A stretch of 64,000 nt of DNA, taken from Streptomyces sp. CB09001. Its GTDB lineage: Bacteria > Actinomycetota > Actinomycetes > Streptomycetales > Streptomycetaceae. The notes under the pieces are model-generated. The model made no database searches. It saw only the letters and a program-made list of their open reading frames with translations, and had not been told where the DNA came from. Both the position numbers and the translations under genes were made by a program. Location of the stretch: NCBI RefSeq assembly GCF_003369795.1, contig NZ_CP026730.1, forward strand, positions 124,001 to 188,000. Reading direction: 5' to 3'. Each line of letters starts with the position of its first letter. The first letter of the stretch is position 1. Shown here piece by piece: positions 6,394 to 42,138 of the stretch.

Positions 6394-6747
6394 TCCTTCC
6401 GCCTTCCTCCAGAGGAGCAGATGCACCGTCCGTCCGCCAGCGCAGCGAACCGCGGCGAAGCCCACCGAACAGCGTCCGGCCGGATCCGTGCCGGGATCGG
6501 GGCTCGTTCGAGTCGAAGGTCCCGCGGGTCTGGGCCGAACGAAACCGATGGGCGGCCTGTACGGCCCTCCCCGCGAACGGCGCGCTCGATGGACACTGGA
6601 GGTGGTGGACGAAAGTCGCGCCGAGACGACCGTGACGGGGTCTCGCGAGCGCCGCGATCACAGAACGGAGGCCCACGGAAGACAACCTCAGCACCCGGGT
6701 ATCCGGCCCAGGAGCCGGACCGCCGGTGGGGTCACTGGGAGGGCTCC
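6394..6747. other. 354-bp divergent intergenic region
   Basis: Lies between the divergent HTH-PNPOx and nitroreductase genes. The only structure seen is a set of GGGNC-type half-sites at about 22-bp steps (6510-6523, 6532-6536, 6563-6567). Long open frames across it are GC-driven and show no family signature. Confidence 0.5.
6510..6523. promoter_or_regulatory. Possible OsdR/DevR-like box
   Basis: GAGTCGAAGGTCCC fits GGGNC-N4-GNCCC with one mismatch. Its reverse complement shares the core GGGACCTTCGAC with the perfect site at 16054. A matching half-site GGGCC follows at 6532. Position: between divergent PNPOx and nitroreductase genes. Confidence 0.4.
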
Positions 6748-7740
6748 ATGGTTCAGGTTCAACTCGACCGGCAGACGGTGACCACCTTGGTGGCCGAAGC
6801 CACGACCGCCCCATCCATGCACAACGCGCAACCGTGGCGCTTCCGGTTCCTCGCAGCCGAACGCCTCGTACTGCTGCGCGCCGATCCCGAGCGGGCCATG
6901 CCCCGGTCCGATCCGGGGAACCGGGCGCTCCACATCGGCTGCGGCGCGGCCCTCTTCAACCTTCGCGTCGCCGCGGTGCACGCGTCCCTGGTACCCCGTA
7001 CCCACTTGCTTCCCGACCCGCGGGACTCTCTGCTTCTCGCGTCCGTCCAGCTGGCCGATCTGTCGGAGGCACCGCAGGAGAGGGATCTGTGGCGGCTGCA
7101 CCCGGCGATTCGACAACGACGCACGAGCCGTCACCCGTTCTCCGAGAGAGACATCCCCGAGGACGTCCGGGCCACGTTGCAGGCGACCGCGGCACGAGAA
7201 GGGGCGACCTTGCTCTTCCCCGGTCTGTGGCACGTCGAGACTCTGCTCGCACTGGTCCACGATGCCGAGAGTCGCGACCTGCTGCGGGCGGAGGGGAATG
7301 AGGACATGGTGCGCTGGACCAGGCTCGGCGGTGAGGTGGACACCGCTGTCGACGGCGTCCCCGCGTACGCCTTCGGTCCGCGCAAGAGGGACGGCAAGGC
7401 CCCGGTGCGCGACTTCTCCGGACGCAGGCCGGTGCCCGACCGGGAGAGCGCGGCCTTCGAGCGCACTCCCCATCTGGCCCTGCTCGGTACCCGCAGTGAC
7501 GGCCCCAGGGACTGGCTGATGGCCGGACAGGCTCTGGAACGCGTTCTTCTGGAGAGCACCCTGGCGGGTCTGTCCACGTCCTTGACCTCGCATCCGCTGG
7601 AGGACCGGGAGCTCCGCCTCCTGGCTCGGGATCCCGGTTCGGGCGTCGGCCACGTACAGATGGTGCTTCGTCTGGGGTACGGGCCGAAAGGGCCGGCCAC
7701 GCCTCGACGGCCCGTACCGGATGTATTGAGTATCGGCTGA
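6748..7740 (+). CDS. Acg-family nitroreductase-like FMN protein
   Basis: A 330-residue protein of the Acg/Rv2032 group: a nitroreductase fold whose two halves sit in one chain. TTAPSMHNAQPWRF at residue 15 is the group signature, followed by RALHIGCGAALFNLRVA and IRQRRTSRHPFSERDI. In mycobacteria relatives belong to the dormancy regulon, bind FMN and have lost usual nitroreductase activity; a storage or sensing role has been proposed. Start ATG at 6748 has GGGAGGG 4 bp upstream. Its placement in the stress island beside an OsdR-like box fits that role. Confidence 0.88.
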   Translation: MVQVQLDRQTVTTLVAEATTAPSMHNAQPWRFRFLAAERLVLLRADPERAMPRSDPGNRALHIGCGAALFNLRVAAVHASLVPRTHLLPDPRDSLLLASVQLADLSEAPQERDLWRLHPAIRQRRTSRHPFSERDIPEDVRATLQATAAREGATLLFPGLWHVETLLALVHDAESRDLLRAEGNEDMVRWTRLGGEVDTAVDGVPAYAFGPRKRDGKAPVRDFSGRRPVPDRESAAFERTPHLALLGTRSDGPRDWLMAGQALERVLLESTLAGLSTSLTSHPLEDRELRLLARDPGSGVGHVQMVLRLGYGPKGPATPRRPVPDVLSIG

Positions 7741-7848
7741 GGGCCGCTCTCCCCCACGCGGGCCGGCCGGCACGGGCGACGCGCTGGGCCAGCCACGCCC
7801 GGATGCAGCACGAAGGGCGATGAGGTACCCCTCAAGGGAGAACGCAGC

Positions 7849-7931
7849 ATGTTCACACAGAGCGGAGGCTGCCTGTGATGACGTCAACCGTCGGTGCGGG
7901 CCCTGCCGTACGAAAGGGTCGCTGTGCCTGA
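7849..7931 (+). other. Two tiny coupled reading frames before the kinase gene
   Basis: MFTQSGGCL (7849-7878, GGGAG upstream) is followed through a TGATG overlap by a 17-codon frame MTSTVGAGPAVRKGRCA (7878-7931), which ends inside the first codons of the next gene. They may be a leader, or the second may be the true N-terminus of the kinase separated by an indel. No homology was recognised. Confidence 0.25.
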
Positions 7932-9450
7932 GCCGGGGCGCCGCGAGGATCCGGCCGTGGCACAGCGCGCGGACGTCCGCGAGACGCACACTGCGGTGGT
8001 CTTCTTCGTGGAAGATCGCGTGTACAAGCGCAAGAAGCCGGTGGATCTGGGGTTCCTGGACTACACCACCCTGTCGTCGCGTCGCGCCGTGTGCGAACGC
8101 GAGATCGAACTCAACCGGCGGTTCTCTCCGGACGTGTACATGGGCCTGGGTGAGCTCCGTACCCCGGGTGAGCAAGCGGCCGAGCCACTCGTGGTGATGC
8201 GGCGCATGCCCGATGATCGCCGCCTGTCTCACCTCGTACGGACGGGAGCACCCGTCGACGACGCCCTACGGGCCGTCGCCAGGCAACTGGCCGCATGGCA
8301 CGCCACCGCACCCCGGGGCCCCGGCATCGCGGAACAGGGCACACGGGACGCCCTGGCGTCGCGCTGGGAGGCCGGCTTCGCGCAGGTAGACGCCATGGCG
8401 GCCGAGGGCCCGACGCCGGGCGAGACGGCGGAGGTCGAACGGCTGGTCCGCCGCTATCTCGAGGGACGCAAGCCCCTGTTCGACCTCCGTATCGAACAGG
8501 ACCGAGTGCTCGACGGGCACGGCGACCTCCTCGCCGACGACATCTTCTGCCTCGGCGACGGGCCGCGGATCCTTGACTGCCTGGAGTTCGACGACCGTCT
8601 CCGGTACGTCGACGGTCTCGACGACGCCGCGTTCCTGGCCATGGACCTGGAGCTGCTCGGTGCACCCGAATCCGCAGCATTCTTCCTCACCCAGTACGGC
8701 GAATACTCCGGTGACCCCGCACCGCCGTCCCTGTGGCACCACTACGTCGCCTACCGTGCCTTCGTCCGAGCCAAAGTGTCCCTGATCCAGGCGCGGCAGG
8801 GCGCGCCCGGCGCGCAGGCGGCGGCGCGACGGCTCGTCCTGATCGCGCTGCGCCATCTGAGGGCCTCAGCCGTCGGCCTGACACTCGTCGCCGGACTTCC
8901 CGGCAGCGGGAAGTCCACGCTGTCCGGCGCGCTTGCCGACCGTCTCGGAGCGGTGCTGCTCAGCAGTGACCGTGTGCGCAAGGAGTTGGCGGGGCTCTCC
9001 GTGCAGCAGAGCGCCGCGGCCGACTACGGCGAGGGGCTGTACACCCCCGAGTGGACGGCCAGGACCTACGCCGAACTACTGGACCGGGCAGCAGCTCTCA
9101 TGGCTCGGGGCGAATCCGTGGTTCTGGACGCCACGTGGATCGACTCGGCCCAGCGCGAGGCGGCACGGCGCACCGCCGAAATCACCGGCGCCGACCTCGT
9201 GGCCCTGCACTGCCACGTGCCCAGCGACGTGGCAGCTGCCCGCCTGAACACCCGTACCTCCGGCTCGTCCGATGCCGACCTCGGCGTGGCCGACGCCATG
9301 GCGGCCGAAGAACAGCCGTGGGCCGAGGCGGTCGGCGTCGACACCAGCGGCTCCCTGGGCTCCGCGGTCGCCCAGGCTCTGGCAGCTGTCCGGCCCTGGG
9401 GCTCGGACCAGGCCAAGGTGTTCCGACGTCCCTACATGGAGCCGGGCTGA
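7924..9450 (+). CDS. APH-like protein fused to P-loop kinase (AAA_33)
   Basis: About 508 residues in two parts. The first resembles the aminoglycoside-phosphotransferase fold: DRVYKRKKPVDLGFLDY near residue 30, and HGDLLADDIFCLGD near 200 as catalytic and metal loops (HGDLxxxxI). The second, from about 325, is a P-loop kinase with LVAGLPGSGKSTLSGALAD (Walker A) and VVLDATWID. Such fusions occur beside universal stress proteins and PPK2 in actinobacteria; the substrate is unknown. GTG at 7924 has AAAGGG at good spacing; GTG at 7894 is an alternative. Confidence 0.88.
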   Translation: MPEPGRREDPAVAQRADVRETHTAVVFFVEDRVYKRKKPVDLGFLDYTTLSSRRAVCEREIELNRRFSPDVYMGLGELRTPGEQAAEPLVVMRRMPDDRRLSHLVRTGAPVDDALRAVARQLAAWHATAPRGPGIAEQGTRDALASRWEAGFAQVDAMAAEGPTPGETAEVERLVRRYLEGRKPLFDLRIEQDRVLDGHGDLLADDIFCLGDGPRILDCLEFDDRLRYVDGLDDAAFLAMDLELLGAPESAAFFLTQYGEYSGDPAPPSLWHHYVAYRAFVRAKVSLIQARQGAPGAQAAARRLVLIALRHLRASAVGLTLVAGLPGSGKSTLSGALADRLGAVLLSSDRVRKELAGLSVQQSAAADYGEGLYTPEWTARTYAELLDRAAALMARGESVVLDATWIDSAQREAARRTAEITGADLVALHCHVPSDVAAARLNTRTSGSSDADLGVADAMAAEEQPWAEAVGVDTSGSLGSAVAQALAAVRPWGSDQAKVFRRPYMEPG

Positions 9451-9480
9451 CGTACGACGATGCCCGACCGTCCCCGTGGG

Positions 9481-9494
9481 GGGCCGATCGTCAC
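9481..9494. promoter_or_regulatory. Possible OsdR/DevR-like box
   Basis: GGGCCGATCGTCAC fits GGGNC-N4-GNCCC with one mismatch, 75 bp before the P-type ATPase start. A second GGGGC half-site follows about 23 bp later. Confidence 0.3.
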
Positions 9495-9568
9495 TGGCCC
9501 AGGGGGGCACGCCGCGCTTCCATGGAGGGAGCGACCGACGTTGCCGCGCCGCACGGACCGAGGTGCCC

Positions 9569-11898
9569 ATGAACCGCTTGCTCCTCGTCGCGCGACTGCG
9601 CCGCTCAACGGCGGCCATCGCATCCCCCCGACTCGAGCACGGCCTCCTCGCTGTCACGACCGCGGCTCTGGTGGGTGGAGCCGTCGCCCACTTTCTCGAC
9701 GCCACCGGCCTGGCAGACCTCTTCTGGGGGCTGGGCACCCTGGCCGCCGTTGTTCCCGCGGTGGGCTGGGTACTGGTCGCACTCCGGCGCGGGCACGCGG
9801 GCGTGGACCTGATCGCCGTACTCGCGCTCGGCGGCACCCTGGCCGTCGGTGAGTACCTGGCCAGGACCCTGATCGCGCTCATGCTGGCCACGGGCCGCAC
9901 GCTGGAGGAAGCTGCTCAGCGCCGCGCCTCCCACGACCTGCACGCCCTGCTCGCGCACGCGCCCCGCTCGGCACGACGTCGCACCGACGAAGGCGTGGTC
10001 AGGGTGCCGCTGGGAGAGGTCGCTGCCGGGGACGCACTGGTAGTCGGCCCGGGTGAGGTCGTCCCGGTCGACGGCCGCGTCGAAAGCGCCGAAGCGGTCC
10101 TCGACGAGTCGGTGCTCACCGGTGAACCGCTCCAGGTCACGCGGCACCGGGATGAGGGGGCACGCAGTGGCGCGGTCAACGCCGGCGGCGCGTTCGACCT
10201 GCGCGCCACCGCTACCGAACAGGACAGCACCTACGCCGGCATCGTGCGGCTCGCCCAGCAGGCCGGCGCGGAATCGGCGCCGGTGGTGCGGCTGGCGGAC
10301 CGGTACGCCGCCTGGTTCCTTCCGCTGGCACTCGTCACGGCGGCACTGGCGTGGCTGGTCAGCGGCTCCCCGGTGCGCGCGGTCGCCGTACTGGTGGTCG
10401 CCACTCCCTGCCCCCTGCTGCTGGCCGCCCCGGTCGCCGTCGTCTCCGGTCTCTCCCGTGCCTCCCGCCGCGGTGTGGTCGTCCGGGACGGTGGAGCACT
10501 GGAGAACCTGGGCCGGGCCCGCACCCTCCTGCTGGACAAGACGGGGACCCTGACCGTGGGCCGTCCTTGTGTCCTGGACGTGGTGGCCGCCCCGGGTCGC
10601 GTGCCGACGGAGGTCTTGCGAACGGCCGCCTCGCTGGACCAGTTCTCGCCCCATGTGCTGGCCCAGGCCATCGTCGAGACCGCTCGGACTCGAAGGCTGG
10701 AACTGTCGGAGCCGACCGAGGTGACGGAGGAGCCGGGCCGGGGGCCCGGGGCGTCGTCGAGGGTCACCGCGTCTTCATCGGTCGCGACGACGCCGCCCGG
10801 GCACGGCCGGCCTGGGCGAAGGCGGTCGACAACCGCGCCCTCCTCGACGGGGCGACCGTGGCATGGCTCGCTGTCGACGAGCGCCTCATCGGTGCCGTCC
10901 TACTGCGTGACCCCCTGCGCCGCGATGCTCCGCACGCCGTGCGTCGGCTCCGGGACGCCGGCATCGGACGACTGGTGATGCTCACGGGCGACCGGGCGGC
11001 CACGGCTCAAGAGGTGGCGGCCGTTCTGGGACTCGCCGGCGTCCGCGCCGGACTCGGTCCTGCCGACAAGGTGGCCGCCGTGCGCGACGAACGCAGTCAC
11101 GCCGTCACGGTGATGGTCGGAGACGGGGTCAACGACGCACCCGCCCTGGCCGCTGCGGACATCGGTGTCGCCATGGGTGCCCGGGGCTCCACGGCTTCCT
11201 CCGAGGCCGCCGACATCGTGCTCACCACCGACCGCGTCGACCGCCTGGCCGACGCCGTTGTCATCGCTCAACGATCGCGCCGTATCGCTGTGCAGAGCGC
11301 CCTCAGAGGCATGCTGCTGTCACTGGCCGCCATGGTCGCGGCCGCTCTCGGCCTGATCCAGCCCGCCGTCGGCGCCCTGCTGCAAGAGGGCATCGACGTC
11401 GCGGTCATCCTCAACGCCCTGCGGGCCCTGCGCGCCGGCCGTGCCGAGCAAGTGGTCCTCGCACCGGCCACCGAAGCCCTCGTCCACCGGTTCGCCGCCG
11501 AGCACGACGACCTGCAGGATGTCCTCCAGGCGGTGCGTGCCGCCGCGGACCGCCTTTCCGGGGTTCCCGAGCCGTCGGCACTCGCGAGCGTCGAGGAGGC
11601 GCACCGGCTGATCACCGAGCGACTGCTGCCGCACGAGTACGCCGAGGAGCATCAGCTCTACCCGGCTCTGGCACCGGTGCTCGGTGGCCCGGAGTCCACC
11701 GCGACGATGAGCCGCGCGCACACCGAGATCGGACGTCTGTCCCGCCGCATCGCCACCCACCTGCAGCTCGCCCGTGCGAACGGCGGCCTGGCCTCCGAAC
11801 AGCTGGACGACCTCCGCTCCTGCCTGTACGGCCTCAACACCGTGCTGCGCCTGCACTTCGCCCAGGAGGAGGAGAGCTACTTCTCCCTGGCCCCGTGA
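9569..11898 (+). CDS. Heavy-metal P-type ATPase with C-terminal hemerythrin domain (frameshifted)
   Basis: A P1B-type metal pump of about 776 residues if one frameshift is repaired. No N-terminal metal-binding domain. Seen: TGEP in VLTGEPLQVT, the membrane metal site ATPCPLLLAAP (CPL, not CPC), the phosphorylation site DKTGTLT (Asp323), MLTGDRAATAQ and GDGVNDAPALAAADIG. After the last membrane segments a hemerythrin-like domain follows (FAAEHDDL, LLPHEYAEEHQLYP, SRAHTEIG, LRLHFAQEEESY), a likely di-iron site. Frame shifts by one missing base within the GC run 10735-10755, just before VVEGHRVF. Either a pseudogene or a sequence error. Metal unknown. Confidence 0.85.
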
Positions 11899-15071: not shown

Positions 15072-15950
15072 TCACGTGACCTGTGGCACCACTACGACCG
15101 GGCAGGACGCGTGCTGCAGCAGCGTATGGGTGACCCGCCCGAGCTGAAGGCCGAAATGGCCCGACCGGTGACGGGCCCCGACGACAACGAGGTCGGCTGC
15201 GGCCGTCTGATGGACCAGCACCTTGCGGGCAGGCCCTTCGACCGTCCGCTTGCGCAGCCTCACGCTCGGATACTCTGCCGCGACTTCGGCCACCAGTGTG
15301 TCGATCAGAGCGGAAGCTCGTTGCTGGTGCTGGTACTCGGAGTCCTCACGTGACGTCCCGTCGTCGGCGTTCTCGTACGCCGGACACCGCCAGGCCCGCA
15401 CGACGTCCAGCTCGCAGCCCCGTACGTCGGCCTCTCGAAAAGCGAACCGCACGGCCTCGCCGCTGGTGTCCGGGTCGCCGGCGCCGAGCAGGACGCGGGC
15501 GTGGGAGCCGGACAGCGCCGACTTCTCACCCCTGACGACGATCACCGGGCAGTCGGCCCGAGAGGCGACGGCCAGGCTGACAGAGCCGAGGAGGGCGCCC
15601 TTCAGCTCCCCACGGCCTCGTGATCCGGTGACCACCGCTGTGGCGTGCCGGCCTTCGGCCAAGAGCGCGGACACCGCTTCCGCGGGAACCGTGTCGGTGT
15701 CGACCGTGAGGCTGGCATCGTATCGCCGGACACGCTCTGCAGCGGTGCCAACGATGTTCTCAGCCATCACCTGCTCCGAGGGGCGTTCTCGGCCCGCCGT
15801 CGGCAGTGCTCCCTCATACCGCTCCCAGAGAGAGGCGTACACCAGACGCAGCGAGAGCCCTCGGCGTTGTGCCTCGTCCACCGCCCAGTCGATGGCAAGA
15901 AGGCTGCCGTCCGACCCGTCGACGCCCACAACCAGGGGGAGTGCCATCAT
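15072..15950 (-). CDS. Universal stress protein, two USP domains
   Basis: About 292 residues with two UspA domains. Domain 1 starts LPLVVGVDGSDGSLLAIDWA and ends with the ATP-binding glycine loop TGSRGRGELKGALLGSVS. Domain 2 has ARVLLGAGDPDTSGEAVRFAF but its loop is GARHRSGHFGLQLGRV, degenerate, so only the first half probably binds ATP. Start at MMALPL (15950) is chosen because GGGTAGTGGGG precedes it; 15983 is possible. Two boxes of the OsdR type 21 bp apart lie 83-117 bp upstream. Confidence 0.9.
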   Translation of the reverse strand: MMALPLVVGVDGSDGSLLAIDWAVDEAQRRGLSLRLVYASLWERYEGALPTAGRERPSEQVMAENIVGTAAERVRRYDASLTVDTDTVPAEAVSALLAEGRHATAVVTGSRGRGELKGALLGSVSLAVASRADCPVIVVRGEKSALSGSHARVLLGAGDPDTSGEAVRFAFREADVRGCELDVVRAWRCPAYENADDGTSREDSEYQHQQRASALIDTLVAEVAAEYPSVRLRKRTVEGPARKVLVHQTAAADLVVVGARHRSGHFGLQLGRVTHTLLQHASCPVVVVPQVT

Positions 15951-16032
15951 CCCCACTACCCTTCTCTCTTGGTGCCGGTTCACGCAGCAGGGCTGCCACC
16001 TTCACGGTGGCATCGGGCGCCCGGGTTCGGCA

Positions 16033-16067
16033 GGGGCGATTGGGCCCGTACAAGGGACCTTCGACCC
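16033..16067. promoter_or_regulatory. Tandem OsdR/DevR-like boxes, 21-bp spacing
   Basis: GGGACCTTCGACCC (16054-16067) matches GGGNC-N4-GNCCC fully. GGGGCGATTGGGCC (16033-16046) matches with one mismatch, exactly 21 bp apart (two helical turns). Located upstream of the USP gene starting at 15950. Confidence 0.55.
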
Positions 16068-16432
16068 CACCCGCCCAGGCCGTCTCGGCCTCGTCCCGAG
16101 GGCCGGTGTCCCCATGGCCTGCGCAGTGGCGAGGGGTGAACATGAACAGAGGGGGTATCGCGAGACGAGGCGATCGTCATGGAACGGATCCAGGTGACAA
16201 GGCGACCGCGCCCTCCACGGCGGCCGGATCTTCCCGACCTGCGCACACCGTCGGGACGTCCCATGCCCTATTAGGCGCTGTCCGGGCGATCACATGACCG
16301 CTCACTCCCTGGTGCGTTGTTGTGGCCCTGGCGGACTGCGGCTCACGCACCGTGTGCGCTTCCCCTGATTCCGTAGCGCAACGCGTCCGGCGCCCTGAGG
16401 TCGTACGGCGCGTGCGGCGGCGCTCCCGTCCG

Positions 16433-16467
16433 GGGCCGACGGTCCCTCGTCAGTGCCCGGGAGGCCC
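16433..16467. promoter_or_regulatory. Tandem OsdR/DevR-like boxes, 21-bp spacing
   Basis: GGGCCGACGGTCCC (16433-16446) is a full match. TGCCCGGGAGGCCC (16454-16467), 21 bp on, keeps the second half perfectly and has two mismatches in the first. Located 118-152 bp before the gene at 16585. Confidence 0.5.
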
Positions 16468-16584: not shown

Positions 16585-17043
16585 ATGACCTCCACGACTA
16601 CGCTCCCCATAGCCATGCCGGCAGAGCACCGCGAACGTCTGCTGCGGCTCGCACGCCAGGTCTCGTTCCCGTCGGGTGCGCGGCTGTTCGAAGAGGGGCG
16701 ACACGCCGATCGCTTCTGGATCATCCGCACGGGAACCGTCGTTCTTGACATCCGTCTCCCGGGCCGACGCAACGCCGACATCGAGTCGCTGGGCCACGGA
16801 GAACTGCTCGGCTGGTCCTGGCACTTCCCCCCGTACCAGTGGCACCTGGGCGCCGAGGCACTCAGCCCGGTACGGGCCTGGGAATTCGATGCGGAGACCG
16901 TCCTGGCCATGGGCGCCGAGCACCCGGAGTTCGGCCGGGCGATCGCGTCCTGGGTCGGACAGGTGGTGGCCGACCGCCTGCAGAGGACGCGCATCCGTCT
17001 GCTGGACCTGTACGCGCCTCATGGCAGCGGAATCCTGCCGTGA
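16585..17043 (+). CDS. Cyclic-nucleotide-binding-domain protein without HTH
   Basis: 152 residues, a single Crp-type beta-roll: LARQVSFPSGARLFEEGRHADRFWIIRTGTV, then IESLGHGELLGWSWHFPPY. The arginine and glutamate that bind cAMP phosphate in Crp (RTAxVxA) are not in place, so a cyclic nucleotide ligand is doubtful. There is no DNA-binding domain; the family's usual regulator length is about 230. GGAAGGAGA before the ATG at 16585. It is followed after 29 bp by a CBS-BON gene and is probably co-transcribed with it. Confidence 0.85.
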   Translation: MTSTTTLPIAMPAEHRERLLRLARQVSFPSGARLFEEGRHADRFWIIRTGTVVLDIRLPGRRNADIESLGHGELLGWSWHFPPYQWHLGAEALSPVRAWEFDAETVLAMGAEHPEFGRAIASWVGQVVADRLQRTRIRLLDLYAPHGSGILP

Positions 17044-18151: not shown

Positions 18152-18565
18152 TCAGGTGCGTCGCACCGGAATGGTCCGGGTTCCCGCCTTCGGGGTCGGA
18201 ACCGGGACCGTGATGGTCAGTACACCGTCCTCGTACTCGGCAGTCGCCTTGTCGTCCTGTGCTCCGGCCGGAAGCCGGACGGAACGGGCGAAGGTGCCGT
18301 AGCGGAATTCGGTGCGGTGCTTCTCCTTGGTCTCCTCCGTGCGCTCGGCGCGCACTGTCAGCAGACCGTCCTCGACGGCGATCTCGACGTCCTTGTCGGG
18401 GTCGATGCCCGGAAGCTCGGCCTTGAGGACGTACACGTCGTCCGTTACATGCTCCTCAACCCGGATGCCGTGCAGACCGGGGGCGACGGGTGCTCCGGGA
18501 AGTCCGGTCTCGACCCAGCCGAACAGGTCGGGCCAGCCCGGCAGCCGCTCCAGCACGCTGCTCAT
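18152..18565 (-). CDS. Hsp20 / alpha-crystallin small heat-shock protein
   Basis: 137 residues, normal length. An alpha-crystallin domain spans about residues 38-130: DDVYVLKAELPGIDPDKDVEI, GLLTVRAER, FRYGTFARSVRLP, and the closing DGVLTITVPVP. The C-terminal I-P-V tail (TIPVRRT) needed for oligomer contacts is present. It is an ATP-independent holdase. AAAGGAGGG before the ATG at 18565. Lies 20 bp after the CBS-BON gene on the same strand, so the two should form one transcript; small heat-shock proteins are dormancy-regulon members in mycobacteria. Confidence 0.95.
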   Translation of the reverse strand: MSSVLERLPGWPDLFGWVETGLPGAPVAPGLHGIRVEEHVTDDVYVLKAELPGIDPDKDVEIAVEDGLLTVRAERTEETKEKHRTEFRYGTFARSVRLPAGAQDDKATAEYEDGVLTITVPVPTPKAGTRTIPVRRT

Positions 18566-18585: not shown

Positions 18586-19326
18586 TCAACGATCGCTCCG
18601 TCGAGCACTGCGTGGAAGGGCCGAACGACCCAGCCGGTCTGCCGGAGGAGCTGCGTTCTCCGACTCTCCTGCCGGACGGTGCCTGGGGCCCGTCAGCGCG
18701 CACCGCACGTCCACGACGCCCTCGACCGAGCGCACCAGCCGTTCGGCCAGCGGAACGAACGAGGTGTCCGGCACCCGGCCGGTGAGTGTGACCACTCCCT
18801 CGTGCACCTCCACGCGGACCGATTCGAGCCCTTCCGGGAACCGGCCGCCGACGATCTCCCGACGGACTTCCTCGGCGATGTCGAGGTCGGACCGCAGGAA
18901 AACCCTGAGCAGGTCCGCGCGGCTGACGATGCCCTGCAGTACGCCGTCGCGGTCGACGACGGGGAGACGCTTGACCTTGCGACGTGCCATGGCGCGGGCT
19001 GCCCGGGCCACAGGGGCGTCCGGGCGGACGGTCACGGCGGGAGTGCTCATCAGGTCCTCCGCGGTGACAGCCCGAGCCTTCACCAGCGCCTCGGGGATCC
19101 GGCTCCGGGGACCGCGCTCGTGGTCGGTGTCACGGAATTCCTCCTTGCGCAGCACATCGGCCTCGGAGACGACACCAATCACGTGGTTTCCCTGATCGAT
19201 GACGGGAAGTGCACTGATCCGTTGTGTCTCCATGGTCCGGACGATGTCCTTGAACGTCGCTCCACCGGCCAGGGCGATGACTCTGCGGGTCATGACGTCC
19301 TCGACCCTGTAGACGTGGCCGTCCAT
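18586..19326 (-). CDS. CBS-pair and BON domain protein
   Basis: 246 residues. CBS1: VEDVMTRRVIALAGGATFKD...HVIGVVSEADVLRKEEF. CBS2: AEDLMSTPAVTVRPDAPVARAA...LQGIVSRADLLRVFLR. BON: VRVEVHEGVVTLTGRVPDTS. Close paralogue of the protein at 17073 (shared KEEFRD and VKRLPVV blocks), on the other strand. A short arginine-rich tail is extra. GGGAGGAAGCC precedes the ATG at 19326. First gene of a two-gene unit with hsp20; the divergent pncB lies beyond a possible OsdR site. Confidence 0.92.
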   Translation of the reverse strand: MDGHVYRVEDVMTRRVIALAGGATFKDIVRTMETQRISALPVIDQGNHVIGVVSEADVLRKEEFRDTDHERGPRSRIPEALVKARAVTAEDLMSTPAVTVRPDAPVARAARAMARRKVKRLPVVDRDGVLQGIVSRADLLRVFLRSDLDIAEEVRREIVGGRFPEGLESVRVEVHEGVVTLTGRVPDTSFVPLAERLVRSVEGVVDVRCALTGPRHRPAGESENAAPPADRLGRSALPRSARRSDR

Positions 19327-21558: not shown

Positions 21559-22215
21559 TCATCGCTGAGTCGTCTCCGTGTCCCGGACCGTCTCCCCGGA
21601 GACGGCGCTGCGCACCGCCAGCACCACCTCCGGCGCCTGGGCCAAGGTGTTCGTGACGGTGCAGTGGGACACAACCGCGCGCAGGGCGGCCTGCTTCTCT
21701 GCCGGCAACGCGGGAGCCGTCACGGTCAGGTGCAATGTCGCTACGCGCGGCGGCCGGTCGTCCGCCATCTGGAACTCGGCGCGGACGGAGAAGCCCTCCC
21801 GGCCGGCACCGTGCCGGTCCAGGAAGCGCCCGGCGTAGTGCGCGGCGCACGCGGCCACCGCTGCCACGAACAGCTCCACGGGTGTGGGGGCGGTGTCCGT
21901 TCCTCCTTCGGTGAGCGGTTGGTCGACGGTCAACTCATGCCCACGGACCCGGATCGCGTAGGCGTCCCCGGCGACCGACACCGCCTCGACGACTCCGGGC
22001 ACGGCACGGGGCCCCGATTCCACAGCGGCTGCCTGGAGCAGCAGCAGACCGGCCAGACGCCTGGCCTCCTCCGCCGTGAGCGACGTCCACAGTTCGTCCT
22101 CGTCGTAGGAGGCGAAGGACGTGTCCAGGACGACGCGGCTCATCCGCGTGGGCAGCCCCTCGGGAGTGAACCGGGTGACATTGAGCGTACGGCCACAGCG
22201 TGTGTGCAGTTTCAT
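21559..22215 (-). CDS. OsmC-family protein with N-terminal extension
   Basis: 218 residues. The C-terminal 140 are an OsmC/Ohr fold with both redox cysteines (AVAACAAHYAGRFLDRHG and VVSHCTVTNTL), so thiol-based peroxide reduction is likely. The first 75 residues (MKLHTRCGRTLNVTRFTPEG, then LDTSFASYDEDELWTSLTAE) are not part of the OsmC domain and resemble a small separate actinobacterial module of unknown function. A perfect OsdR-like palindrome lies 84 bp upstream. Confidence 0.88.
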   Translation of the reverse strand: MKLHTRCGRTLNVTRFTPEGLPTRMSRVVLDTSFASYDEDELWTSLTAEEARRLAGLLLLQAAAVESGPRAVPGVVEAVSVAGDAYAIRVRGHELTVDQPLTEGGTDTAPTPVELFVAAVAACAAHYAGRFLDRHGAGREGFSVRAEFQMADDRPPRVATLHLTVTAPALPAEKQAALRAVVSHCTVTNTLAQAPEVVLAVRSAVSGETVRDTETTQR

Positions 22216-22312: not shown

Positions 22313-22342
22313 CTCCTCGCGCGCCGTGTGAGCGCACACCCC

Positions 22343-27800: not shown

Positions 27801-28496
27801 TCAGATCTCGGTCAGTAGATCGTCCACCTCGCTGACGTCGGCGATGCGCTTCACGGCATCGGTCAGAGCAGCGATACGCGCCGCGTTGAGTGCGCCCGTG
27901 AGCGTGACGACACCGTTGCGTACCCGCACCCTCACCTGAGAACTCGGGATGTCGAGTTCACGCAGGACGCGGTCCGCGATCTCGTCGTGGATGGCGCTGT
28001 CGTCGCGCACCAGGGCATGCAGCAGTTCGTTCCGGGTGACCACTCCCACGAGCCGGTCGTGGTGATCGGTGACGTAGATCTGCCGGACCCTTGCCCGCGC
28101 TGCCGTCCGTGCTGCTTCGATCACGGCCGTCCATGGCCGGACCGTGACCACCGGTGCAGTCATCAGCGCGGCCGCTGTCTCCTTCGCGACCGGCACCTTC
28201 GCTTTCGGGAACAACCGGACGGGCCCGGTGCCGCCCTTCGGCCCGGCGAGCGTCGCGGCACGGGCCAGCAGATCGGATTCCGCCACCACACCGATGACGC
28301 GCCGGTCGTCGTCCGTCACGGGCATGGCCTCCGCATGCCTGCGTGCCATCGCGCGAGCGACGTCCAGAAGCGGGGTCCCGGCGGTAACGGTCGGCACGGC
28401 GCCCGAGCGCCGCATGATGTCGGACACCCGGAGGTCCGCGACCACCCGCGGCCGCGCCGCCCGCCAACGTGCGTCTCCGCCCCGCTGCCCCTCCAT
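27801..28496 (-). CDS. CBS-pair and BON domain protein (N-terminus uncertain)
   Basis: 231 residues from ATG 28496. CBS1: VSDIMRRSGAVPTVTAGTPL...RVIGVVAESDLLARA. CBS2: AALMTAPVVTVRPWTAVIEAA...LVGVVTRNELLHALVR. BON: VRVRVRNGVVTLTGALNAA. It is the most divergent of the four paralogues. The ATG at 28496 has no good ribosome-binding site, whereas an ATG at 28606 in another frame has GGGAGG at ideal spacing and opens MSDQAQRTLQHRQEHMVRYL. An indel between the two may have cut off the real N-terminus. Perfect OsdR-like tandem boxes lie 67 bp above 28606. Confidence 0.88.
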   Translation of the reverse strand: MEGQRGGDARWRAARPRVVADLRVSDIMRRSGAVPTVTAGTPLLDVARAMARRHAEAMPVTDDDRRVIGVVAESDLLARAATLAGPKGGTGPVRLFPKAKVPVAKETAAALMTAPVVTVRPWTAVIEAARTAARARVRQIYVTDHHDRLVGVVTRNELLHALVRDDSAIHDEIADRVLRELDIPSSQVRVRVRNGVVTLTGALNAARIAALTDAVKRIADVSEVDDLLTEI

Positions 28497-28672
28497 GGGA
28501 GAGGCTCTCCTCGGGCGGCCTCAGCCGAGTGGGATGCCATGGCCTGCAGATAGCGCACCATATGTTCTTGCCGGTGTTGCAACGTCCGTTGCGCTTGGTC
28601 GCTCATGGCAACCTCCCACACTCCGGTTCACGTCTCCCACTCCACCGTCTCTCGGGCACCGGGCCGAGCCCA

Positions 28673-28707
28673 GGGTCGCCCGGCCCCGTCCTCGCGCCGA
28701 TCGGCCC
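28673..28707. promoter_or_regulatory. Tandem OsdR/DevR-like boxes, 21-bp spacing
   Basis: GGGTCGCCCGGCCC (28673-28686) is a full match and GCGCCGATCGGCCC (28694-28707) has one mismatch; spacing 21 bp. They fill the short gap between the histidine-kinase gene and the CBS-BON gene downstream of it, giving the latter its own promoter. Confidence 0.6.
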
Positions 28708-28709
28708 GG

Positions 28710-30473
28710 CTACGCCGGCGTTGCTTCCTCTCTCCCCTGTCCCTCCGCGGTATCCACCGGTGCCCACCAGACGAGGCGTGTGCCGTCGCCTTCCCGAGCC
28801 TCCAGTTCGAGCTCTCCCCCGCATGTCCGCGCCCGCTCCTCCATGTTCCGCAGACCGCTGCGGCGACCCCCAGGAGCGAAACCCACACCGTTGTCACTTA
28901 CCGTGAGCCGCACCTTCTTGCCGTCCGTCTCCAGAAGGACGTCGACATGGTCGGCACGCGCGTGCCCGGCGACGTTGGCGAGCGCCTCTGACAGGACGGC
29001 CAGAATGTGGTCCGCGATCTCCCCGGCCACGTGCGTATCCAGCAGGCCCGCCATGCGAACGCTGGGAGCGAAGCCGAGAACGGCCACCGCATCTCCCACC
29101 GCTCCCACGGTCCGGGTACGGAGACCGGGGGTCGCTTCGTCGTCCCGGGAACGCAGGCCGAAGATCGTCGATCTGATGATCTTGATCGTCTCGTCGAGAT
29201 CGTTCACTGCCCGCAGCACACGCTGCCGGGCCTTGTCGTGGTCGATCAGCTTCCCGGCACTCTGCAGCGTCATAGCGGTGGCGAACAAACGCTGGATCGC
29301 GAGATCGTGCAGGTCACGGGCGATCCGGTCTCTGTCCTCCAGCACAGCGATCTGTTCCGCGTCACGGCGACGATCGGCCAACTCCATCGCCACGGCCGCC
29401 TGAGCAGCGAAGACCTGCAAGGACTCGGTCTCACGATCACTGAAGGAAACACCGCCGCCCTCGCGCGCCAGGAGCACCACGCCACGCACGCCTTCGCTCG
29501 ACCCGATGGGCACGGTCACCGCCGGGCCCAGCCCCTCGAACCGCCGAGGGCCGGCCGAGATCCGCTGGTCCCGGGACACGTCCGGGCTGCTCACCGGCAC
29601 ACCTTGCACGAAAGCTTCGCCGACAAGCGTCCCCTGAACGGGCAGGACCATCCCGCGCAGCACCTCGGCCTCCTTCCCGATGGCGAGTTCCACCGCCAAT
29701 GAGTCGGTGCCGCGGACCGGGATGGCCACCACCCCCAGCGCCGCGGCGGTGATCTCTCGACTCCGTTGCGCGATCAGCTCCAGAACGTCGCTCTGCTCAG
29801 CACCCGACATGAGCGACTCGGCGATCTCCGCGTTCGCCTGGAGCCAGCGCTCACGCAACCGGGACTCCTCGTAGAGCCGCGCGTTGTCGATGGCCACACC
29901 GGCAGCAACCGCCAGCGTCGACAACACTGACTCGTCGTCCTCGTCGAACTGCAGACCACCACGCTTCTCGGTGAGATACAGGTTGCCGAAGACATGGTCG
30001 CGTACGCGGATCGGCACTCCGAGGAAGCTGTTCATCGGGGGATGGTTCGCCGGGAAGCCGTACGAAGCCGGATGCTGGGAGAGCTTCGGGAGCCGCAGCG
30101 GCTCCGGGTTTCGAATCAGCTCACCGAGGATCCCGTGTCCTTCAGGGAAATGACCGATGCGCGCGATCTGCTCGTCGTCGACACCCACCGTGTAGAAGGC
30201 GGACAGGCTCCGGCCGTCCGGGCCGATCACGCCAAGTGCCGCATATTCCGCGTCAACGAGAGTCGCCGCAGCTTCGACGATCGTCCGGAGGGCTTGTTCC
30301 AATTGCAGATCACGCCCTACAAGAAGCACGGCTTCCAGGAGGCTGTGCACGCGGTCCCGCGTTCCACGGGCCGCGTCCAGACGGGCCTGCAGTTCCCCCA
30401 ACAGCTCGTCGAGTCTCAGCTGCGGCAGCTGCACAGACGCGTCCCGGGCCTCTTCGGAGCTTCCCACTGCCAT
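28710..30473 (-). CDS. osdK: DosS/DevS-like GAF-GAF histidine kinase (OsdK type)
   Basis: 587 residues: two GAF domains (about 55-200 and 225-370), a HisKA_3 dimer box with the phosphorylated histidine in RIARDLHDLAIQRLF (His389), then HATPase with DNGVGF and GLRNMEERA. GAF-A keeps the haem ligand of mycobacterial DosS (H of FPANHPPM, His144) and the distal tyrosine 22 residues on (FGNLYLTEK, Tyr166), so it should be a haem-based gas or redox sensor. GGAGG is too close to ATG 30473; GTG 30467 is a likely true start. The symbol follows S. coelicolor by similarity. Its probable partner regulator is 11 kb away at 41366. Confidence 0.9.
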   Translation of the reverse strand: MAVGSSEEARDASVQLPQLRLDELLGELQARLDAARGTRDRVHSLLEAVLLVGRDLQLEQALRTIVEAAATLVDAEYAALGVIGPDGRSLSAFYTVGVDDEQIARIGHFPEGHGILGELIRNPEPLRLPKLSQHPASYGFPANHPPMNSFLGVPIRVRDHVFGNLYLTEKRGGLQFDEDDESVLSTLAVAAGVAIDNARLYEESRLRERWLQANAEIAESLMSGAEQSDVLELIAQRSREITAAALGVVAIPVRGTDSLAVELAIGKEAEVLRGMVLPVQGTLVGEAFVQGVPVSSPDVSRDQRISAGPRRFEGLGPAVTVPIGSSEGVRGVVLLAREGGGVSFSDRETESLQVFAAQAAVAMELADRRRDAEQIAVLEDRDRIARDLHDLAIQRLFATAMTLQSAGKLIDHDKARQRVLRAVNDLDETIKIIRSTIFGLRSRDDEATPGLRTRTVGAVGDAVAVLGFAPSVRMAGLLDTHVAGEIADHILAVLSEALANVAGHARADHVDVLLETDGKKVRLTVSDNGVGFAPGGRRSGLRNMEERARTCGGELELEAREGDGTRLVWWAPVDTAEGQGREEATPA

Positions 30474-31497: not shown

Positions 31498-31603
31498 CCC
31501 CGGCCCTCGGCCATGCACGCGCAGAGCGGCGGTCACCGCCCCTGCCCGGTCCGACCAGCCCGCGGCAGTCAACACCGCCGCTGGGCTCGGCGAGTCATCG
31601 GCA

Positions 31604-31617
31604 AGGCCGAACGGCCC
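31604..31617. promoter_or_regulatory. Possible OsdR/DevR-like box before ppdK
   Basis: AGGCCGAACGGCCC matches GGGNC-N4-GNCCC with one mismatch, 112 bp before the pyruvate phosphate dikinase start. A second GGGAC half-site lies at 31626, 22 bp on. Confidence 0.35.
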
Positions 31618-31728
31618 ACCCTTCCGGGACCGGTGGGCTTCGCATCGGGCCGGCCGGTGAAGGGACGCTGGAAGCGGCATACCGTGCCGGAACCGGCACA
31701 CAGTCCTCCGAGTCGAGGAGCGGGAGAC

Positions 31729-34434
<2,706 letters not shown>

Positions 34435-35218: not shown

Positions 35219-35220
35219 CG

Positions 35221-36291
35221 TCACACCGCGTCTGCGGCGACGACTCCGCTCTGGGAACTGCCGAGGACCACCTTCAGTGCTCCGGTGTCCGCGGCGCCGG
35301 AGAAGACCTCGTACGCCTCCTCCATGCGTTCCAGTGGGAAGGTGTGGGTGACCAACTGGGCGGTGGGAAGCCGTCCGGAGGCGGTCATGCGCAGCAGCGT
35401 GGGTGTGGACCGGGTGTCGACCAAGCCGGTGGTGATCGTGACGTTCTTGATCCACAGGTCTTCCAGGTGCAGGGACGCCGGCTTGCCGTGCACGCCGACG
35501 TTGGCGACGTGCCCGCCCGGACGCACCATGCGGGTGCACATCTCGAACGTCTCCGGTACGCCCACGGCTTCGATGACGACATCGGCGCCGAGTCCCCCGG
35601 TCAGGTCGGCGACCAGTTGCTCCGGTTGCTCGCGGGCGTCTGCCACGGCGTCGGCCCCGATCTTCCTGGCGGCCTCCAACCGGGCGGCGGCCAGGTCCAC
35701 GACGACGATCCGTTCGGGCGCGAACAACCGTGCCGTGGCGACGGCGGCCAGTCCGATGGGCCCGGCGCCCACCACGACGACCGTGTCCCCCGGGCGGACG
35801 TGCCCGTTGAGCACACCCACCTCGTAGGCCGTCGGGAAGATGTCGGCCAACAGTACGGCGTCCTGGTCGGCGACCGCACCAGGCAGGGGGTGCACGGAGA
35901 GGTCCGCGTACGGAACGCGTACATACTCCGCCTGGGTCCCGTTGATCAAGTGGCCGAGGATCCAGCCGCCTCCGCCGAGGCACTGGCCGTACACGCCCTC
36001 ACGGCAGTAGCGGCACCTTCCGCAGGCGGTGATGCAGGACACCAGGACGCGGTCTCCCGGACGTACGGTGCGCACGTCCGTGCCGACCTCGACGATCTCG
36101 CCCACCGCCTCGTGGCCGAGGACGGTTCCGGGGCGCACCTCGGGGACGTCCCCCTTCAGGATGTGCAGGTCCGTGCCGCAGATCGTGACGGCGTCGACCC
36201 GGACCACCGCGTCGGTGGGCTCCTTCACGTCGGGGTCGGGTGTGTCCTCCCACCCGGACCGGCCCGGCCCGTGGAATACGTAGCTCTTCAT
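35221..36291 (-). CDS. Zinc-dependent alcohol dehydrogenase (MDR family)
   Basis: 356 residues. Catalytic zinc ligands are in ICGTDLHILKGD (Cys38) and GHEAVGEIVEVG. The structural-zinc lobe CGRCRYCREGVYGQC is complete. The Rossmann loop is VVVVGAGPIGLAAVATARLF, followed by IVVVDLAAARLEAARKIGAD; the Asp after the second strand favours NAD over NADP. Substrate unknown; a neighbour of universal stress and dormancy genes in S. coelicolor too. Tandem OsdR-like boxes are 136-170 bp upstream, so hypoxic induction for NADH re-oxidation is plausible. Confidence 0.93.
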   Translation of the reverse strand: MKSYVFHGPGRSGWEDTPDPDVKEPTDAVVRVDAVTICGTDLHILKGDVPEVRPGTVLGHEAVGEIVEVGTDVRTVRPGDRVLVSCITACGRCRYCREGVYGQCLGGGGWILGHLINGTQAEYVRVPYADLSVHPLPGAVADQDAVLLADIFPTAYEVGVLNGHVRPGDTVVVVGAGPIGLAAVATARLFAPERIVVVDLAAARLEAARKIGADAVADAREQPEQLVADLTGGLGADVVIEAVGVPETFEMCTRMVRPGGHVANVGVHGKPASLHLEDLWIKNVTITTGLVDTRSTPTLLRMTASGRLPTAQLVTHTFPLERMEEAYEVFSGAADTGALKVVLGSSQSGVVAADAV

Positions 36292-36426
36292 CGCGATGCT
36301 CACCCTCTCTGTGCTCGGGAGCCTCCGGGGCCTGGTGACCGGTCTGCACCGAGTGGGCCCACGACCGCCGGTTCGACGGGGATCGCCCCACAACTCCAGC
36401 CTGTCCACGGCAACGCGCCCACGCTT

Positions 36427-36461
36427 GGGCCGGTCGGCCCTCGCCTGTCGCCTGTCGGCCC
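36427..36461. promoter_or_regulatory. Tandem OsdR/DevR-like boxes before alcohol dehydrogenase
   Basis: GGGCCGGTCGGCCC (36427-36440) is a full match and identical to the site before the regulator gene at 42125. TCGCCTGTCGGCCC (36448-36461), 21 bp on, repeats GTCGGCCC with two mismatches in its first half. The rest of the 341-bp gap 36292-36632 holds only the hairpin at 36547. Confidence 0.6.
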
Positions 36462-36546
36462 TGGGTTGGGCAGGTTCGTGGTGCTCGCTCGTGAGGGTTA
36501 CGGCGAGCGGCCGCGAGCCCATACGCGGCGGGCAGTAGGGGCCTGT

Positions 36547-40299: not shown

Positions 40300-41205
40300 T
40301 CAGGGATGCGCCACGACGGCGACGGGTGCGGTTGCATGGTGCAGCACCGCGTGCGTGACGGCGCCGATGTGCACGCCCAGCGGGTTGCGCCGAATGCGCC
40401 GCCCGACGACCACCAGGGACGCGTCGTGCGACACGTCGACCAGATGGTTGGCGGGGCTGCCGGAGCGGGACACCTCGATGACCTTGACGCTCGGGTACTT
40501 CTGCCGCCAGGGCAACAGCACGCGGGTAAGGTCGGCCGCTTTCCTACGGGCCACCCCTTCGTTCAGTGAGGCGTCCGCGGCCAGTCCATAGGGGGAGTAG
40601 GCCGGCAGGTGCCAGCCACTGACCACGCACAGCGTCGTCCTGCGGCACCGTGCCTCCGCGAAGGCGAAGTCGAGCACATCGTCGTCAGAGCTGCCGATGT
40701 CGAGTCCGACGACGACCGGACGGAAGTCAGTGGCTGCGGACGGGATGCCGACGGGGTCCATGACGTGCTCGTCGGCCGCCTGCTCACCGGCACGTACGAA
40801 GATAACGGGAGTCTCGGTGTGGACGATCACCGATTGACCTACCGAGCCGACCAGAAAGCCGCCGAGTCCGCTCAGGGCGCGCGAGCCGAGGACCAGGAGT
40901 TCCGCCTCGTCGGCGGCCTTGACCAGGGTGTCCGCCGGTGGGCCCGACCGCTGGTCACTGGTCACCACGACACCGGGATGACGCAGTCGGAGCCCTTCGC
41001 CGGTCTCCCGCGGGACACGCTCGGTCCAGTACCGGTGCGTCTCGGCACCGAGAATCGGATCCTGGGTCAGGGCTGCGGGGGCCGGCTCCCACACGTGCAG
41101 GAGTCGTACGGGCAGGTCACGCAGATCAGCCTCGCGGGCCGCCCACTCAGCGGCGGCGTGGCTCTGAGGAGAGCCGTCGATCCCTACGGTGATCGTGCGG
41201 GTCAT
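40300..41205 (-). CDS. Universal stress protein, two USP domains
   Basis: 301 residues. Domain 1: TRTITVGIDGSPQSHAAAEWA, HVWEPAPAALTQDP, loop LGSRALSGLGGFLVGSVGQS. Domain 2: PVVVGLDIGSSDDDVLDFAF, loop VGRRIRRNPLGVHIGAVTHA, degenerate. ATG at 41205 has GGGAGG close by. First gene of the USP-USP-Pat transcript; two OsdR-like boxes lie 65-98 bp upstream, beyond the regulator gene's stop. Confidence 0.93.
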   Translation of the reverse strand: MTRTITVGIDGSPQSHAAAEWAAREADLRDLPVRLLHVWEPAPAALTQDPILGAETHRYWTERVPRETGEGLRLRHPGVVVTSDQRSGPPADTLVKAADEAELLVLGSRALSGLGGFLVGSVGQSVIVHTETPVIFVRAGEQAADEHVMDPVGIPSAATDFRPVVVGLDIGSSDDDVLDFAFAEARCRRTTLCVVSGWHLPAYSPYGLAADASLNEGVARRKAADLTRVLLPWRQKYPSVKVIEVSRSGSPANHLVDVSHDASLVVVGRRIRRNPLGVHIGAVTHAVLHHATAPVAVVAHP

Positions 41206-41269
41206 GCCTCCCACCTCCCGTGTCGGTCCTTCTGACTTCAGCATTGCTCGCAACAGGTGGACGGGGTAG

Positions 41270-41303
41270 GGGCTGCTCGTCCCGGAACACGGACGAGGGT
41301 CCC
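41270..41303. promoter_or_regulatory. Pair of OsdR/DevR-like boxes before USP-USP-Pat
   Basis: GGGCTGCTCGTCCC (41270-41283) and CGGACGAGGGTCCC (41290-41303) each match GGGNC-N4-GNCCC with one mismatch; spacing is 20 bp. They lie 65 bp before the USP start at 41205 (minus). Confidence 0.45.
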
Positions 41304-41365
41304 TTCGACGGACTGCCGGAGCCGACCGGGCCGGGCACACGGCAAAACGGTGGTTGTGCCGCCGC

Positions 41366-42055
41366 TCACTCCCTTTCGTCCCGCAGACGGTCCTCCGCGT
41401 GGGTGGCGATGACGGCGGCCTGGACGCGACGCTCCACGCCCAGCTTGGCGAGCAAGCGGGAGATGTGGTTCTTGACCGTCTTCTCGGCCAGGTACAACCG
41501 CTGGCCGATCTGTCGGTTGGTCAGCCCCTCGCCGATCAGTGCCAGGATGTCCCGCTCCCGCTCGGTCAGACCGGGCAGCGCGTTCGACTCCTGCTCCCGG
41601 TCCTGACCGCCGCGCAGGCGTGCCATCAGCTTCGCGGCGGCGGCCGGGTCCAGCAGTGACTGGCCACGGGCCACCGTGCGTACGGCCGAGACGAGGTCCG
41701 AGCCCTCGATCTGTTTCAGGACGTATCCGGCCGCGCCCGCCATGATCGAGTCGAGCAGCGCCTCCTCGTCGTCGAACGAGGTCAGCATCAGACAGGCGAG
41801 GTCCGGCATGCTCGACCGCAGCTCCCGGCACACGGTCACCCCGTCACCGTCCGGCAGCCGTACGTCCAGCACCGCGACGTCCGGACGCAGCGCAGGGACG
41901 CGCACCAGGGCCTGCTCGACGGTCGCCCCCTCGCCGACCACGGTGATGTCGGGCTCGTCGTCCAGCAGGTCGTGCACCCCTCGCCGGACCACTGCGTGAT
42001 CGTCCAGAAGAAAGACTGTGATCGCGGTCACGCGGTCGGGCTGCTCGCTGTCCAT
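41366..42055 (-). CDS. osdR: LuxR/NarL-type response regulator (OsdR/DevR type)
   Basis: 229 residues. The receiver domain has the acidic pocket FLLDDH (Asp18, Asp19), the phosphorylated Asp64 in [13 protein letters not shown], Thr in MLTSFDDE, and Lys in GYVLKQIEG. The C-terminal HTH is [20 protein letters not shown] with [20 protein letters not shown], closely resembling mycobacterial DevR (DosR). Probably the partner of the GAF kinase at 28710, whose gene is not adjacent. Its own promoter carries a perfect box at 42125, which suggests autoregulation. Symbol by similarity to S. coelicolor. Confidence 0.9.
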
Positions 42056-42124
42056 CGTCGATCGCTCCTCGATGAGGCGTCCTGCCCACAGTGCCAGTCT
42101 TCTTCCAGCAGGGACCGAATGCCA

Positions 42125-42138
42125 GGGCCGGTCGGCCC
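42125..42138. promoter_or_regulatory. OsdR/DevR-like box, perfect palindrome, before the regulator gene
   Basis: GGGCCGGTCGGCCC, identical over 14 bp to the site at 36427, 70 bp upstream of the response-regulator start (minus). A GGGAC half-site lies next to it at 42111. Confidence 0.6.

Follow-up and report, generated by a model that had tools for sequence, protein, structure and literature searches.

The question raised by this stretch of the Streptomyces sp. CB09001 genome (the window; 64,000 nucleotides, positions 124,001–188,000 of contig NZ_CP026730.1) is whether a palindrome, GGGNC-N4-GNCCC, that recurs in front of dormancy-type genes between about 6 and 42 kb marks a set of regulatory sites and, if so, which protein reads them. 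A sequence-only reading of the window had listed seven full matches and ten one-mismatch sites and had likened the pattern to the mycobacterial DevR box. The palindrome is the OsdR box of Streptomyces, the counterpart of that mycobacterial box, and its copies are very probably operators of OsdR, a response regulator whose gene lies in this cluster and which, when phosphorylated by OsdK, would bind them and recruit RNA polymerase as a class II activator. The regulator gene, its own box and the candidate kinase gene lie at the following positions (window numbering; the composite score is defined below).

41366–42055, − strand: osdR, NarL/LuxR-type response regulator, DevR/OsdR orthologue (Pfam Response_reg and GerE)
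42124–42139, − strand: single near-consensus OsdR box of osdR itself (scores 21.0 and 20.1, composite 28.2), with the A of a predicted −10 element at 42100 and its T at 42096
28710–30473, − strand: osdK-like sensor kinase with two GAF domains, HisKA_3 and HATPase (Pfam); frame open to 30794

The best match of OsdR in the PDB is DevR (3c3w; E 3e-77), and the alignment retains the segments VLDVRLPDG and EKTVKN, which we take to contain the phosphorylated aspartate and to form the recognition helix, respectively. OsdR shares 76–89% identity with its counterparts encoded at 80 loci from Streptomyces and kin, which were kept from at least 534 relatives, and its best match elsewhere in its own genome is 66% identical. 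The 16-bp operator AGGGCCGATCGGCCCT is present upstream of targets and of osdR. Both the match to DevR and the fit of the sites to this consensus, which has been tested by gel shift, support a DevR-type box; the form GGGNC-N4-GNCCC proved too loose, the informative form being GGGCCGNNCGGCCC. The box upstream of osdR has all 12 core bases and is the best-scoring box in the window, and boxes with all 12 core bases are found in 48/79 osdR upstream regions (L053 was too short to be counted) versus 6/1211 control genes.

The first GAF domain of the kinase matches five GAF chains of DevS and its relative 2vzw, which we take to be DosT, with E values of 8e-51 to 4e-46, and the histidine in its FPANHPPM segment, presumably the heme ligand in both proteins, aligns with that in HPPM of DevS. 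The kinase is 74–75% identical to the kinases encoded directly after osdR in three of the loci (L016, L032 and L041), and the next-closest kinase in its own genome matches it at 44%. On these alignments, the product of 28710–30473 is very likely OsdK.

The number of motif matches is weak evidence, as the sequence-only reading had itself cautioned. Its seven full matches (16054, 16433, 22299, 24253, 28673, 36427 and 42125) were all recovered, and seven more that it had not listed (8463, 17129, 18618, 39101, 42744, 46881 and 55475) lie in DNA called as coding; the resulting 14 compare with a mean of 8.9 in shuffled windows, and 5/100 shuffles reach at least 14. One-mismatch sites are not enriched as a class, with 127 in the window versus a shuffled mean of 182, a deficit. 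Counting the loose pattern alone was thus discarded as too weak. Across the 7.79 Mb genome there are 24 exact copies of GGGCCGNNCGGCCC, of which three lie in the island (window 6300–42300, 36 kb) and one is located 8 kb to the left of the window.

Position is more telling than number. In the island the simple motif occurs seven times in 6,446 intergenic bases versus four times in 29,554 coding bases (Fisher p 0.001), where genes were called by our own codon-usage script, so that starts and coding labels are approximate. Control DNA from the same genome (74 stretches, 1.48 Mb, excluding L132 and L133, which had been chosen for a second regulator and a kinase) holds 34 matches in 178 kb of intergenic and 103 in 1302 kb of coding sequence. 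Control gaps are therefore somewhat richer in the motif than control genes, but this bias is far smaller than that of the island, and the motif density of island gaps differs from that of control gaps with p 0.0005. The earlier claim that position is the stronger point is upheld, and equal density inside genes, which it had named as the contrary outcome, was not what was found.

The same contrast was obtained with two 16-bp weight matrices, both built without the window. The first was built from the boxes that precede osdR at 78 loci in other species, with identical boxes counted once; it admits only boxes with at least 10/12 core bases of the published consensus and is thus not a discovery from scratch. 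The second is derived from the 26 box sequences in Table 1 of Urem et al. 2016 (PMC5069765). At a score of at least 11, both matrices find nine intergenic sites in the 6.4 kb of island gaps versus three in 76.4 kb of control gaps, and coding sites number two (first matrix) or one (second matrix) in 29.5 kb of the island versus 21 or 15 in 603.6 kb of control genes. A comparison of matrix scores between intergenic and coding DNA was the check proposed with the original list, and it shows the island gaps to be enriched. Among the ten one-mismatch sites, 9481, 23341, 28694 and 31604 score at least 10 with both matrices, and 23320, 41270 and 41290 score below 10 but have a partner box 20–21 bp away. 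The remaining three, 19397 (second-matrix score 1.0, below the cut-off; its partner at 21 bp scores 6.7), 6510 (0.4; 22 bp from a weak box at 6531) and 24918 (4.0; in coding DNA), may be single weak chance matches. At the cut-offs used, these three of the 17 listed sites are not supported; boxes at 6531/6553, 9460, 16032, 18617 and 24284 are additional to that list.

Promoters of other species show how the boxes are arranged. From the upstream gaps of the 80 loci we removed convergent gaps, gaps no longer than 60 bp and near-identical promoters (sharing more than 62% identity over 80 bp), which left 159 unidirectional promoters that contain a box scoring at least 10 (the totals of 158, 159 and 163 in different analyses arise from gap ends being cut differently). 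A partner box (score of at least 3) lies at 20–23 bp in 64/159 of these promoters, and the five other 4-bp bins tested gave 0–8. Across 244 non-redundant gaps, those of the window and its flanks included, the partner rate per position is 3–8% at 20–23 bp; elsewhere between 8 and 80 bp it never exceeds 2%, with slight increases around 33, 44 and 50–56 bp. Only 1/20 osdR promoters has a partner box versus 33/75 promoters of the other island families, which suggests that pairing belongs to target promoters and not to autoregulation.

A second preferred distance is found downstream of the box. The pattern A-N3-T starts +31/+32 from the centre of the proximal box in 79/159 promoters; counted as matches, there are 39 at +31 and 42 at +32 in about 157 promoters (81 in total) versus 5.1 expected. 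With an identity limit of 50% instead of 62%, 61 promoters are left, 25 with the −10 pattern and 28 with a partner. Divergent gaps, which were not used for finding the rule, gave 32 matches at +31 and 23 at +32 in 189 orientations (55/189), with 0–6 at other offsets except 53/54, where there are 15 and 13; this second rise fits cases in which the proximal box was missed. Among 20 decoys with column-permuted matrices, 19 gave only 2–12 matches at +31/+32. The value of pairing claimed by the sequence-only reading is thus borne out in other species, although five of the 13 island places are without a standard −10.

The motif TANNNT is present at 80.4% of mapped S. coelicolor transcription starts, according to the accessible text of PMC4895711. 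It was not found at a fixed distance from the box; the aligned promoters instead gave A-N3-T without the initial T, within an element that reads G/C-A-G-G-C/A-T-G. If A-N3-T is the −10 element, as this alignment suggests, with A at −11 and T at −7, the box centre falls at −42.5 or −43.5, where a class II activator would cover the −35 region. This geometry, with the box centre about 31–32 bp upstream of the predicted −11 A, is seen in 8/13 island places as well as in the unidirectional and divergent sets above, in each case from sequence only. A T precedes the A in only 2/97 and 2/55 matches of the unidirectional and divergent sets, respectively. Compared with 7.2% before A-N3-T in unidirectional gaps generally, 4/152 is only a mild depletion (p 0.013), and the idea of strong counter-selection against T at −12 was rejected on this ground. 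The −12 T appears not to be used or selected for in these promoters and may be weakly avoided.

These regularities would amount to one promoter code for the OsdR-type regulons of Streptomyces and kin, a proposal that is favoured here with some reserve. Its elements would be a box at −42.5/−43.5, in many cases joined by another at a distance of two helical turns, and a −10 sequence G/C-A-G-G-M-T-G in which A-11 and T-7 are retained but the T-12 of most streptomycete promoters is lost, leaving the promoter silent in the absence of its activator; osdR would have one near-perfect box and its targets often phased pairs.

A composite score was formed from the proximal box, an optional distal box at 20–23 bp and the −10 element. 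With a threshold of 20, eight places qualify in the 36 kb island, the remainder of the window has none, and the 1480 kb of control DNA contain one, in coding sequence; lowering the threshold to 16 gives 11, none and nine, respectively (6/9 control places coding; 74 stretches). An earlier impression that there were no false composite matches, based on the first 34 control stretches and their three rows of at least 16 in one gap, was dropped when the 74 stretches gave nine places. The composite raises the weak pair 41270/41290 to 22.6 with a good −10 and supports 28673/28694 (28.1), 16054 with 16032 (24.3), 23320/23341 (22.4, no standard −10) and 6531/6553 (21.7, beside 6510); it gives no support to 24918, nor to 19397 at the cut-off. 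One control-stretch box of the same genome (17.7; L139, 6842–6864) lies between protoporphyrinogen-oxidase-like and divergent lipoprotein-like genes and is apparently, from genes matched by eye, the counterpart of the SCO6041/SCO6040 target in the accessible part of PMC5069765.

Besides the box of osdR, the island contains the following places.

41269–41304, − strand: twin weak boxes (20 bp) with a predicted −10 (score 8.8) before the universal stress protein gene 40300–41205; composite 22.6
36426–36462, − strand: twin boxes (21 bp) with a predicted −10 before the zinc alcohol dehydrogenase gene 35221–36303 (Pfam); composite 31.9
31603–31618, + strand: single OsdR box without a −10 in the standard place before the pyruvate phosphate dikinase gene 31729–34434 (Pfam); scores 13.5 and 15.0
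28672–28708, − strand: twin boxes (21 bp) with a predicted −10 directly behind osdK, toward the CBS/BON gene 27801–28445 (Pfam; start uncertain); composite 28.1
24252–24299, + strand: two boxes 32 bp apart (scores 12.7 and 9.2), the proximal one with a strong predicted −10 (10.5), before the Rv1733c-family gene 24355–24936 (NCBIfam NF050032)
23319–23355, between divergent genes: twin boxes (21 bp; scores 6.8 and 17.6); composite 22.4 both ways
22298–22313, − strand: single OsdR box without a −10 in the standard place before the OsmC-like gene 21559–22215; scores 15.4 and 16.0
18617–18632, − strand: OsdR box with a predicted −10 in the 3′ end of the CBS/BON gene 18586–19326; scores 15.4 and 13.0, composite 17.7
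16432–16447, + strand: single OsdR box without a −10 in the standard place before the cyclic-nucleotide-binding (Crp-like) gene 16615–17043; scores 11.9 and 13.7
16032–16068, − strand: twin boxes (21 bp) with a predicted −10 before the universal stress protein gene 15072–15950; composite 24.3
9460–9495, + strand: twin boxes (20 bp; scores 8.6 and 15.1) with a poor standard −10 (−0.6) before a P-type ATPase frame from about 9.5 kb (Pfam); composite 23.2
6531–6568, + strand: twin boxes (22 bp) with a predicted −10 before the Acg/Rv3131-family flavin mononucleotide oxidoreductase gene 6748–7740 (NF047509); composite 21.7

The composite of 31.9 at the zinc alcohol dehydrogenase gene is the window maximum. 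The pair at 23319–23355 is flanked by the divergent genes 22343–23251 (DUF1918/helix–turn–helix/PNPOx) and 23503–24144 (CBS) and has no standard −10 in either direction; toward 22343–23251, AGGCT stands one base further away, at +33. The centre of the box at 18617–18632 lies 60 bp before the Hsp20-type gene 18152–18565. Among homologues with an upstream gap, a box is present in 32/55 for the universal stress protein gene 40300–41205 and in 6/7 for the zinc alcohol dehydrogenase gene; homologues with a box number 12/14 for the Crp-like gene, 7/10 for the universal stress protein gene 15072–15950 and 10/19 for the Acg/Rv3131-family gene. In the accessible part of PMC5069765, the S. coelicolor gap SCO0207–SCO0208, next to the dikinase gene, is a gel-shift-tested OsdR target, and one of the boxes given for SCO0168 in its Table 1 is identical to the box at 16432–16447 in all 16 letters. 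A short frame at 28316–28621 (− strand), with a ribosome-site-like GGGAGG before its ATG, follows directly after the twin-box promoter 28672–28708 and could be a small gene that comes first, before the CBS gene.

The mechanism that best accommodates this arrangement begins with the putative phosphorylation of OsdR (41366–42055) by the cluster's OsdK-type kinase. Phosphorylated OsdR is likely to bind the boxes and recruit RNA polymerase as a class II activator, with A-N3-T acting as the presumed −10 element and the box, at about −42.5, taking the place of the −35. A spacing of 20–23 bp corresponds to two helix turns and would put both boxes on the same face; two OsdR dimers may bind there cooperatively, in which case a weak box would be functional beside a strong one. 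The osdR gene would be autoregulated through its one near-perfect box, and the signal could be nitric oxide or a low oxygen level, both of which have been reported in this role for S. coelicolor.

Several observations weigh against this account. One of the 20 decoys, the one closest to the real matrix, shows the geometry too (40/153; 32/159 pairs). A good standard −10 is absent before the pyruvate phosphate dikinase, OsmC-like and Crp-like genes, at the 23319–23355 pair and at the ATPase pair. Several island genes have no box, osdK among them: one was looked for in front of osdK with both matrices and the composite and none was found, and only 11/50 osdK homologues have a box. Nor are osdR and osdK in one operon here, being about 11 kb apart; an osdK homologue is, however, the next gene after osdR in only 20/80 loci, in 16 of them on the same strand (two loci are contig ends and in one osdR is uncalled), so an osdR–osdK operon is not defining for the system. 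In the sampled loci, a box is found in 0/3 OsmC-like and 0/2 Hsp20-type homologues. Over all families, 152/292 homologues of island genes have a box versus 142/580 other genes of the same loci without a homologue in the window; family-level conservation of the boxes alone is only about twofold above neighbouring genes and was dropped as stand-alone support.

A different reader of the same boxes is unlikely but deserves mention. A second DevR-like regulator, 66% identical to OsdR, is encoded at 3472456–3473097 of the same genome (locus L132) and might be the main protein to read the boxes or might share them. The notion draws on its recognition helix (EKTIKNYVSSLL), which is very similar to that of OsdR, on a full twin-box promoter (composite 22.8) right behind its gene and on S. 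coelicolor, where OsdK partners with a second regulator, SCO3818, according to the accessible text of PMC5069765. It is osdR, however, that lies inside the island, preceded by the box that scores highest in the window, and the full set of 12 core bases is kept upstream of its orthologues in the 48/79 regions noted above. The twin-box promoter of the second locus is directly downstream of the DevR-like gene and reads into a short gene (region 3472456–3473200).

That the palindromes are chance matches in DNA of 71% G+C, with the gap sites picked by the earlier reader, is very improbable. Such an origin would agree with 14 full matches versus 8.9 in shuffles, with one-mismatch matches below expectation and with the seven coding matches left out of the earlier list, but not with an intergenic bias that is strong in the island, much weaker in controls and present also with outside-window matrices, nor with the favoured spacings of the partner box and the −10-like element. 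Slighter still is the probability that the palindromes act as RNA hairpins, that is, as terminators or attenuators instead of operators. Although GGGCCGNNCGGCCC is foldable as a short hairpin, the boxes lie upstream of the −10 wherever one is predicted (8/13 places) and hence outside the transcript, the window has no Rfam match at gathering thresholds, and the accessible part of PMC5069765 reports DNA binding of the same sequence; the box position and the Rfam result led to the rejection of this idea.

Read as OsdR operators, the palindromes place a known dormancy regulon in another streptomycete and let its likely targets be predicted down to single promoters; the island stands out from other DNA of the genome more clearly by box, partner and −10 combined than by the box on its own. 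If the lack of the −12 T is borne out, it would offer a simple, testable explanation of how such genes could remain off until their activator acts, and it could serve directly in designing an oxygen-dependent reporter for Streptomyces.

Some other features of the window can be noted. The P-type ATPase occupies two overlapping frames within 9272–11898 (+ strand), with E1-E2 and the start of the HAD domain in 9272–10978 and the rest of the HAD domain and a C-terminal hemerythrin domain in 10351–11898, an apparent frameshift or assembly error near 10.7–10.8 kb. Within 241–5593, an IS110-family transposase gene (241–1458) stands beside a piece encoding only the C-terminal part of HypF (2323–3102), followed by hypC, hypD and a hypE-like gene; the hydrogenase maturation set appears truncated at its left end. 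To the right of the island, 48.5–64 kb resembles by eye a light-linked carotenoid cluster, with photolyase-like and phytoene-type enzymes.

The palindrome finding as originally worded is a new instance of a known regulon. In S. coelicolor, the orthologous regulator OsdR (SCO0204), with its kinase OsdK (SCO0203), has the same 16-bp consensus, and the accessible text of Urem et al. 2016 (PMC5069765) reports binding to AGGGCCGATCGGCCCT by gel shift and mutated probes, better binding upon phosphorylation, and lost expression in a regulator mutant. The nitrate reductase gene narG2 is a further target in S. coelicolor. The kinds of target common to that regulon and the island, as far as they appear there, are universal stress proteins, zinc dehydrogenase, pyruvate phosphate dikinase, Crp-like and nitroreductase-type proteins and osdR itself. 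In S. coelicolor osdK is in the osdR operon, whereas here the two genes are separated. Twin spacing and −10 distance are not discussed in the accessible part of PMC5069765, of which Table 1 lists one box pair 20 bp apart, before SCO0517; in a literature largely without subscription journals, no description of either was found for OsdR among the titles listed, and the accessible portions of PMC6448022 and PMC10034137 give DosR motifs without such geometry.

G/C-rich arms (GGGCCG...CGGCCC) distinguish the streptomycete box from that of the DevR (DosR) regulon of Mycobacterium tuberculosis. Pfam and NCBIfam matches assign island genes to the usp, Acg/Rv3131, Rv1733c, CBS and Hsp20 families, which are also families of the DevR regulon, and some island members may lie outside the mycobacterial regulon. 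The two systems share the regulator family, GAF-type kinases and a palindromic GGG-N-C...G-N-CCC box, and cooperative primary and secondary sites and overlap with the −35 region would also be common to both; the accessible text of PMC3029386 describes DevR as binding two neighbouring sites cooperatively, with the proximal site overlapping the −35. Since cooperativity and −35 overlap are thus already known for DevR, the principle is not new; the regularity of the layout across the streptomycete regulon and its unusual −10 element may be.

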